A stretch of DNA of 64,000 bases. It comes from Caballeronia sp. dw_276. Lineage in GTDB: Bacteria; Pseudomonadota; Gammaproteobacteria; Burkholderiales; Burkholderiaceae. The position numbers and the translations under genes were made by a program. How positions within the stretch are numbered: the stretch's first letter is position 1; each line of letters starts with the position of its first letter. The DNA is taken from NCBI RefSeq assembly GCF_018449635.1, contig NZ_JAAVUV010000007.1:248001-312000 (forward strand), given 5' to 3'. Positions 30,481 to 34,499 of this stretch are shown here, piece by piece. The notes below the pieces were generated by a model. The model had not been told where the DNA came from. It saw only the letters and a list, made by a program, of their open reading frames with translations, and ran no database searches.

Positions 30481-30816
30481 TCAAGCTTGCCAGACGCCGT
30501 ATCCTGCTTCCCGCAAACCTATGGCCAGCTCCACTTCCATTTCCCGCGCGCCTTCGTAAGGCATCGGGTTGTACAGCTCGTACAGCTGCGGCAACAGGCG
30601 CAGCCCGAAATCGCGTACATAACGGTTCGACTGAATGCCGGCTTTGTGTTTATCGAAACGAACGTCCGGATCGATGCCCGTCATGCCCACATAGACAAAC
30701 GGCTTGCCCAGCACGTAATCCGGATTGGCGCGCCGGAAACGCGCTTCGTTCCAGACTGGATCGGCGAGTTCGATGACGTACACGTGATAGTGATGAATCT
30801 TCTTTCGAAGCGCCAT
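30481..30816 (-). CDS. GIY-YIG-like small protein
   Basis: A 111-residue protein from the ATG at 30816 (the frame is open to 30876 without a site there). It shows VYVIEL and, after an insert, VYVGMTG, in the places of the GIY and YIG strands. These are followed by the RFDKHKAG segment that would carry the conserved Arg, and by MEVELAIGLREAGYGV, which may give the metal-binding Glu. This resembles the GIY-YIG nuclease fold, but the fit is partial and catalysis is not assured. Confidence 0.55.
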   Translation of the reverse strand: MALRKKIHHYHVYVIELADPVWNEARFRRANPDYVLGKPFVYVGMTGIDPDVRFDKHKAGIQSNRYVRDFGLRLLPQLYELYNPMPYEGAREMEVELAIGLREAGYGVWQA

Positions 30817-30876
30817 GCGTTTGCCTTGGTGCGCCTTTTCGCGCGAACCGGTCCTGGAACGGGCTGGGACGCTCAT

Positions 30877-32661: not shown

Positions 32662-32695
32662 AACGCCGGCGCATTCGCGTCGGCGTTTTGTTTTT
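32662..32695 (+). terminator. Rho-independent terminator of gnd
   Basis: AACGCCG (32662-32668) pairs with CGGCGTT (32681-32687). Four inner pairs and an ATTC loop complete the stem, and the T-run GTTTTT ends at 32695. It ends the gnd transcript just before the DUF4365 unit. Confidence 0.88.
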
Positions 32696-32758: not shown

Positions 32759-32798
32759 TCCCGCTAGCATTTCCTGTCGATAGGAAACATTAGCGGGA
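32759..32798 (+). promoter_or_regulatory. 40-nt inverted repeat over the ribosome binding site
   Basis: Outer arms TCCCGCTA (32759-32766) and TAGCGGGA (32791-32798) and inner arms TTTCCT (32770-32775) and AGGAAA (32782-32787) share one centre, with a GTCGAT loop. The GGGAGA ribosome binding site of the next gene begins in the right arm. The element could be an operator for a dimeric repressor or a translation-blocking hairpin. A second palindrome, CAAAATT/AATTTTG, lies at 32705-32722. Confidence 0.6.
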
Positions 32799-32803
32799 GA
32801 ATC

Positions 32804-33373
32804 ATGGCCACTGCACTTTCAGTACTCAACAGAGAATCGGAGCTGAGCTACGCTTATCTCCACGCAATTGCGTCGCACGCAGGGGTCAACTGCAAGATCA
32901 GCAACTGGCACGACGACAATGCCGGCATCGACGCCATTCTTACGGGCTGGGAACCGTTTCCGAATGGCGGCGCCTTGACCGAGGTCGACATCAAGGTTCA
33001 ATTGAAGGCAACCGTCAAAGTGCCGTTCGACGACGGCGAATCGCTCTCCTACTTCCTCCCAGGGACGCAACAGTACGATGCCCTGCGCCGTGAGACGCAC
33101 GCGTCGCCGCGAATACTCGCCGTGCTGTTCCTGCCTCCGAACGCCGAGGACTGGCTGGAGCATTCCGAAGAGCAATTGGTGCTTCGAAAATGCGCCTACT
33201 GGGTCAGCTTGCGCGGCGCCCCGGCCACGAACAACGCAGCGGGAGTCACCGTGAAGATCCCGAAGAACCAGACGTTCGACGGAGCCGGTCTCATGCAACT
33301 CATGGCAAGCATCTCGCGACGCGAGATCCCTGTTTATCGAAGCCTTTCCGATCAGGTGCCCCATGACGCTTAG
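32804..33373 (+). CDS. DUF4365 domain protein, putative PD-(D/E)XK nuclease
   Basis: A 189-residue protein matching the DUF4365 pattern. An N-terminal helix (SELSYAYLHAIASHAG) precedes GIDAILTGW and then EVDIKVQLKATV. The Asp followed by a Q-x-K strand resembles the core of PD-(D/E)XK nucleases. Later segments LPGTQQYDALR and RILAVLFLPPNAEDWLEHSEEQLVLRKCAYWVSLRG are typical of the family. Such proteins appear alone or beside unknown genes, and nuclease activity is predicted, not shown here. The gene overlaps its partner by 11 nt. A GGGAGA site lies in an inverted repeat. Confidence 0.8.
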   Translation: MATALSVLNRESELSYAYLHAIASHAGVNCKISNWHDDNAGIDAILTGWEPFPNGGALTEVDIKVQLKATVKVPFDDGESLSYFLPGTQQYDALRRETHASPRILAVLFLPPNAEDWLEHSEEQLVLRKCAYWVSLRGAPATNNAAGVTVKIPKNQTFDGAGLMQLMASISRREIPVYRSLSDQVPHDA

Positions 33374-34499
33374 TACGCTATCTCCGTCAGGCCTGCGCGA
33401 TTTCATTCAATCGCTCGGATGGCAATTGCTGCCCGATGGCATGGTGGATGGACTGTACGTGTTCAATCACGTTTCAGCGCCGCGTCGCCAGATTGTCATT
33501 CCCATGGACCATCACGCGCCGGACTACGCGGAGGCGTGCGAACTCGCCATGTCCAAACTCGCAGACCTGCAAGGCATGAAGCCGGCGGATTTGGTTCAGC
33601 TTGCCGCAATCTCGCGTGACGACTCCATGTATTACCGGGTGACGGGCAGCGGCGTGCTCAGTGAAGGCTTGCCTTTGTCGTTTGCAGCGTCGTTGCTTTT
33701 GGGCGCCGAACAGATCCTTCTCGCTTCGGCTTGCACGGTATTGCGACCACAGGCCCATCATCCGCGTCTGCACAGGGGCGAAGCCACGCAGCTTGCAAGC
33801 CACGCGAGGCTCGGTCACACAGAGCGTGGTAGCTTCGTGGTGCGCGTGTCGTGCCCGGTCGATGCCATGGAAACGCCATCCACACTGGCGCTTACCAACC
33901 CCAACGAGTCCTTCGTTCGCATGACCATGCTGAGTGCGCGGCGCGGCGTGCGAGACCTCGTCGATGCTATCGAGACAGACACGCTTACGCGCTTCGTCGA
34001 TTTGCAGAAAGGTGCGCGCTCACCCGTCGTTTCCTCAAATTTGTGTGAGGCGCTGACGCGTATGCATGACGAAGAGATGCAGAACACCATCGACCTGTCA
34101 TTCCGTTGGGCAACGACTGTGGCGTTGCCGCAAGATATTCCCACGAGCGAAAGCATACGGATCAAAAGCGATCACTTTGGGCGTATAGAAGAGGTGCGCC
34201 GTGAGTTGCGCGATGTCGAGCACGATCGCGACGACGTATTCATTGGAACCGTCGAGCACTTGAACGGGCAATTCGACATCGAAGGAAACCGGGCGGGCGA
34301 AGTTATCGTTGGGTTGCTTCAGCATGACAAGGAAACAATCAAGGCACGCGTCGTACTCAACCACGAACAGTATGCAAAGGCAGTTGCGGCCCATCTCGAC
34401 GATCGCACTTTTGTGCGGATCGCGGGGCGGCTACGTCCCGGGCGTCAACCGCGTGTGCTGGTTGACGTGACAAGCTTCACTTTGATTGGTCCGGGGTGA
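33363..34499 (+). CDS. Unknown partner of DUF4365 protein, OB-like C-terminus
   Basis: A 378-residue protein I do not recognise. The N-terminal part (1-100) is alpha/beta with a MDHHAPDYAEACELA segment. A middle region of about 200 residues includes an acidic-basic helix (EEVRRELRDVEHDRDD). The last 85 residues (GTVEHLNGQF...RVLVDVTSFTLIG) look like a five-stranded OB-type barrel, a nucleic-acid-binding fold. Its start lies inside the DUF4365 gene, so the two are translated together and probably act together. There is no signal peptide or membrane helix. Confidence 0.75.
   Translation: MTLSTLSPSGLRDFIQSLGWQLLPDGMVDGLYVFNHVSAPRRQIVIPMDHHAPDYAEACELAMSKLADLQGMKPADLVQLAAISRDDSMYYRVTGSGVLSEGLPLSFAASLLLGAEQILLASACTVLRPQAHHPRLHRGEATQLASHARLGHTERGSFVVRVSCPVDAMETPSTLALTNPNESFVRMTMLSARRGVRDLVDAIETDTLTRFVDLQKGARSPVVSSNLCEALTRMHDEEMQNTIDLSFRWATTVALPQDIPTSESIRIKSDHFGRIEEVRRELRDVEHDRDDVFIGTVEHLNGQFDIEGNRAGEVIVGLLQHDKETIKARVVLNHEQYAKAVAAHLDDRTFVRIAGRLRPGRQPRVLVDVTSFTLIGPG

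Follow-up and report, generated by a model that had tools for sequence, protein, structure and literature searches.

In Caballeronia sp. dw_276, two overlapping genes, here denoted A and B, are located between gnd and a sugar-isomerase/ABC-transporter operon (Table 1). They were analysed within a window of 64,000 nucleotides, i.e. the whole stretch of contig NZ_JAAVUV010000007.1 from position 248,001 to 312,000, to which the coordinates of this locus refer. According to the list of open reading frames, both genes are encoded on the plus strand, start with ATG and share 11 nt, yielding products of 189 and 378 residues; the overlap and the size of the second product agree with an earlier note on this DNA. 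The siting between a terminator and a convergent operon was also read correctly: gnd with its terminator (32662-32687) lies upstream, and the sugar operon is oriented convergently. The regulatory palindrome that the note ascribed to the pair is present as an inverted repeat, but its regulatory role is unsupported, since only the closest relatives retain the repeat as a palindrome and it extends into the ribosome-binding region. The reading of the repeat as a dedicated operator was rejected, as conservation in relatives is lacking. A scan for promoters did not find a sigma-70-type site. In almost every Caballeronia locus compared, a small conserved gene of 131 aa (window 30481-30876) accompanies gnd.

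Table 1. Features of the A/B locus (positions in the window)
Feature	Position	Strand	Basis
Gene A, predicted free-standing DUF4365/DREN-type PD-(D/E)XK nuclease, PADLOC PDC-M02A	32804..33373	+	Pfam, PADLOC, AlphaFold2 fold; 189 aa
Gene B, partner protein PDC-M02B, 378 aa	33363..34499	+	PADLOC; AlphaFold2 model
Overlap of the A and B reading frames, 11 nt	33363..33373	+	Close spacing or overlap recurs in homologous loci
Codon of D43, predicted metal-binding Asp	32930..32932	+	Invariant in 28 homologues; motif order comparable to D41 of the NbaSPARDA DREN
Codons of Q66-L67-K68, predicted catalytic QxK strand	32999..33007	+	Q66 and K68 invariant; motif order
B N-terminal domain, residues ~1-95, retained in mini-B forms	33363..33647	+	Comparison with mini-Bs
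B middle region, residues ~96-287, missing from mini-Bs; conserved GQTERGS-like and SANLC motifs	33648..34223	+	
B C-terminal OB-fold domain (predicted), residues ~288-378, retained in 3 of 4 mini-Bs	34224..34496	+	AlphaFold2 secondary structure, Foldseek, second stretch of mini-Bs
Imperfect palindrome directly 5' of A; role unsupported	32759..32798	.	20-nt arms, 80% complementary

The pair had been regarded as undescribed. A profile search of the second protein, proposed in the earlier note, corrected this view: B matches the PADLOC model PDLC04329 (PDC-M02B; E 1.9e-151, 502 bits), and A matches PDLC04287 (PDC-M02A; E 2.2e-83, 276.5 bits). Since PADLOC assigns A to PDC-M02A and B to PDC-M02B, adjacent here in one operon with A first, the Caballeronia pair is, judged by these profile matches, a member of the existing, unvalidated candidate defence system PDC-M02. 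It consists of the same two proteins in the same order, and homologues elsewhere match the same models; it does not differ in kind, the only peculiarity being a fixed chromosomal site of its own. The founding preprint of the PDC series is reportedly that of Payne et al. 2024. PDC candidates originate from a guilt-by-embedding survey, and most of them await validation (PMC12988326). The literature search retrieved no paper naming PDC-M02; going by the literature searched, the candidate is catalogued but has no mechanism assigned to it, and the link to SPARDA set out below offers a testable proposal for one.

Gene A encodes a DUF4365 protein (Pfam PF14280; E 1.8e-16, 60.9 bits with a cut-off of 24.3). 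The nuclease-like Q-x-K strand recognised earlier is present as Q66-L-K68, and in an alignment of 28 homologues, viral-contig loci included, D38, D43, Q66 and K68 are invariant and represent possible active-site residues. When the AlphaFold2 model of A (mean pLDDT 80.7) was compared with the PDB by Foldseek, the top 11 matches were all SPARDA chains, the best with an E-value of 7.2e-6 and a probability of 1.00, and ten of the 11 were below E 0.001. SPARDA systems are short-Argonaute immune systems, whose effector nuclease DREN (DUF4365) is fused to APAZ. Searching PDB sequences with profiles of A and of B found nothing useful, so that the connection between A and SPARDA is seen by fold search only. 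For NbaSPARDA, the catalytic residues of the DREN domain are D41, Q60 and K62; the isolated domain shows no detectable nuclease activity and is switched on by filament-driven tetramerisation (PMC12205087). In TmuRE, Q62 and K64 are the predicted catalytic residues (PMC10810196). The order of the motif in A is comparable, D43/Q66/K68 corresponding to D41/Q60/K62 of NbaSPARDA and Q66/K68 to Q62/K64 of TmuRE. As motif and predicted fold both match the SPARDA DREN, we infer that A is a free-standing DREN-type nuclease. It shares the nuclease fold and the D..QxK active-site pattern with SPARDA, but would comprise the DREN domain only (189 aa), without the fusion to APAZ. Weaker structural matches to MspJI and DpnI reflect a faint similarity of the catalytic core to type IV and other PD-(D/E)XK restriction endonucleases; in contrast to these, A lacks a recognition domain, and the OB-fold partner is encoded separately.

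This partner, B, has no match in Pfam. Its AlphaFold2 model (mean pLDDT 85.7) mostly retrieves OB-fold proteins from the PDB, namely RPA, SSB, PriB and PrgE, with Foldseek probabilities of mostly 0.9-1.0 and E-values no better than 0.008. Judged from their length and secondary structure, these matches are best attributed to the C-terminal strands of the model, which bears out the OB-like C-terminal domain proposed earlier; for the N-terminal ~240 residues, Foldseek revealed no clear solved relative in the PDB. The models are confident as regards both the predicted nuclease fold of A and the predicted OB fold of B, and the latter likely binds single-stranded nucleic acid. Going by its model, B is unlike both Argonaute and APAZ. 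The structural matches listed for B include no SPARDA chain, and no short Argonaute (MID-PIWI) is encoded in the operon, B having no Pfam match and OB-fold proteins as structural matches; the partner of A differs in this from that of the SPARDA nuclease. Among viral-library proteins, B best matches an uncharacterised protein of Leptospira phage LE1 (E 3.3e-20).

B also occurs in shortened forms. Plasmids of Nostoc, Tolypothrix and Azospirillum (L176, L177, L178, L179) encode, behind A, a short protein of 175-185 aa that replaces B. These mini-Bs match the PDC-M02B models; for three of the four, the match is split into two stretches with the middle missing, which comprise the first ~90 and the last ~80 residues and correspond to profile positions ~1-90 and 287-371. 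The match of the Azospirillum mini-B is limited to the N-terminal stretch. Both stretches were recovered by two-sequence comparison, and the N-terminal part is backed by profile comparison. The mini-Bs suggest a minimal partner of ~180 residues, a size convenient for biochemistry.

Within Caballeronia, B was detected in 13 of 58 species-level genomes, the other 45 giving no match, and in carriers the pair is always found between gnd and the sugar operon. Conservation in all strains together with a housekeeping role had been named in the earlier note as speaking against a defence module; the locus is indeed fixed, yet only these 13 species show the gene. In G028, a genome inside the carrier clade, the site is empty and gnd is separated from the isomerase gene by 128 bp, and across the genus the gap between these two genes, computed from coordinates, ranges from 0.1 to 22.7 kb. 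In several non-carriers it is filled by an oxidoreductase gene which, named from sequence, we take to be of the Gfo/Idh type; in G014, the pair lies between gnd and the Gfo/Idh-type gene.

Other genomes harbor quite different cargo at this position. The gap of G010 contains ~22 kb with a T3SS ATPase, a homologous cluster being present in G023 (L104-L107 for these two genomes), and that of G040 (L112) a T6SS TssF/VgrG group; given this ~22 kb T3SS/T6SS cargo in the three genomes, the site accepts large, functionally unlike inserts. In G038, type I-F CRISPR-Cas genes (Cas1, Cas2-3, Csy1) are situated beside a long Rhs protein, with homologues in G049 (L108-L111 for the two). The site of G043 (L119:60-1759) is occupied by a toxin-antitoxin-like two-gene unit of HTH/ImmA-IrrE and DUF4411, and homologues of its ImmA/IrrE gene reside at the same site in G002, G037 and G039. 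Ten cargo proteins of the site (G040, G048, G017, G020), encoded mostly by T6SS, metabolic or unknown genes, gave no match in PADLOC.

The trees of A and B agree with the Caballeronia species split, with G014 outermost. As the B tree follows this split, the pair looks inherited and lost in Caballeronia rather than freely mobile, and a single old acquisition followed by several losses would fit the data; repeated exchange at the one site is a possible alternative history. For A and B, the median dN/dS values over ten species are 0.09 and 0.13, compared with 0.02-0.05 for three flanking genes. Both genes are therefore under purifying selection, which identifies them as real genes and not chance reading frames, and by the same measure the pair is maintained while evolving faster than its neighbours. 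Decayed copies occur as well. G032 combines an intact B with an A that is interrupted by a stop at codon 91; the draft genome G021 shows the reverse, with A intact and B carrying a stop at codon 32 plus a frameshift; and in G050, a reduced symbiont, A and B have decayed together with genes next to them. For G021, a sequencing error is possible, because an ATPase gene at the same locus is frameshifted too, yet B bears two separate lesions. The intact A beside a broken B in G021 and the truncated A beside an intact B in G032 weakly suggest that neither gene alone is lethal, weakly because some of these genomes are drafts or decaying.

The family as a whole is rare. With the models used, matches came from 4 genomes among the 369 of the class sample and from 9 among the 399 of the phylum sample, and records of the family derive from Pseudomonadota, Actinomycetota, Bacillota, Spirochaetota and Bdellovibrionota, with the short form in Cyanobacteriota. 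Among 33 B loci on viral contigs, some near-identical, A is immediately upstream of B in 30; two of the three exceptions are near-identical loci with B behind a pentapeptide-repeat gene, and the third is a partial B. In a survey of the gene neighbourhood, likewise proposed in the earlier note, single loci adjoin defence genes: the pair immediately follows HsdS in L050 and comes after AbiJ in L052, it precedes SIR2 in L047 and, in Entomospira, it is near three DUF262 (GmrSD-type) genes. Among the 147 neighbouring proteins, no defence partner recurs beyond methyltransferases (3), GmrSD (2) and ResIII (2); the commonest Pfam families, each with 2-4 members, are CI-like repressor domains, methylases, capsid, SSB and resolvase. 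Seen in single loci and with no matched background count, the defence-gene neighbours are suggestive and do not amount to statistical enrichment. No third conserved partner was found among the 147 proteins, so a larger operon is unlikely. One pair lies beside an integrase gene (L134), others adjoin CI-like repressor genes in prophages, and two M. abscessus prophages carry the pair at the prophage end, in their first genes.

A two-gene nuclease module in a defence-like layout, as the earlier note had proposed, is well supported by the DREN-type fold, the close pairing of A and B, their patchy presence, the carriage by prophages and plasmids, and the neighbouring defence genes, and a defence role of the pair is likely. 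More specifically, chances are about even that the two proteins form a nuclease-based defence module of the PDC-M02 kind that works without Argonaute and is directed against phages or plasmids, with B as sensor and activator of A. The effector would be A, a SPARDA-like degrader of nucleic acids with the putative catalytic residues D43, Q66 and K68, and B, with its conserved N-terminal domain, middle domain and C-terminal OB fold, would stand in for the Argonaute-APAZ sensor. In the resting state, B may keep A inactive or monomeric; upon meeting phage- or plasmid-derived nucleic acid, it would cluster A, which would then cut DNA, perhaps RNA too, so that the invader is cleared or the cell is stopped. 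The physical interaction of A and B and the nucleic-acid trigger are both features that we infer. The term sensor is a guess, since the fold search linked the N-terminal 240 residues of B to no clear relative of solved structure.

The same anatomy is for the most part shared by two rival explanations that assign B a different task. In a toxin-antitoxin-like arrangement, A would be constitutively active and B an inhibitor that releases A on infection or plasmid loss. The tight two-gene pairing with overlapping frames, the purifying selection on both genes and the carriage by prophages and plasmids would all suit such a system, but the intact A next to a broken B in the draft genome G021 should then be lethal, and the related NbaSPARDA DREN domain is inactive on its own; this arrangement is considered unlikely. 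The activator role of B is thinly preferred over that of an inhibitor, on the pseudogenes in draft genomes. B might instead recognise a DNA sequence, modification or structure and direct A to cleave the invader as a type IV restriction system does, without collateral damage. This would agree with the PD-(D/E)XK fold of A, with MspJI and DpnI among its weaker structural matches, and with the loci behind HsdS and near the DUF262 genes of Entomospira. The module, however, does not include a methyltransferase, and the closest structural relative of A is a non-specific nuclease activated by assembly, leaving restriction a rather improbable reading.

A role in host DNA repair or metabolism, unrelated to invaders, could draw on the fixed chromosomal site and vertical inheritance in the Caballeronia clade, and OB folds are common in repair proteins. 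Against it stand the 45 of 58 species without a match, the clean absence from G028, the decay in G021, G032 and G050, and the prophages and plasmids that carry the pair in other phyla, which make a host function very improbable.

If the pair is the nuclease defence module outlined above, it raises the question of how a DREN nuclease is switched on without Argonaute. A tentative answer, given somewhat less than even chances, is that PDC-M02 is an Argonaute-free DREN switch, in which an OB-fold protein, reducible to its N-terminal and OB domains, would perform the sensing and assembly that SPARDA entrusts to guide-loaded Argonaute-APAZ. The link to a structurally solved SPARDA effector singles out the exact residues concerned, i.e. 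D43, Q66 and K68. Should collateral cleavage upon a nucleic-acid trigger prove true, the pair would also qualify as a compact candidate tool for detecting nucleic acids, an application for which SPARDA has already been put forward.

Individual loci depart from the complete pair. In one of them (L157:6617-7891), about 0.7 kb of additional sequence interrupts the A gene, and B is open. On two viral contigs (L151, L152), a B homologue without A, behind a pentapeptide-repeat gene, is found close to an ERF-like recombination gene; such a lone B may represent a remnant or else a decoy of the phage.
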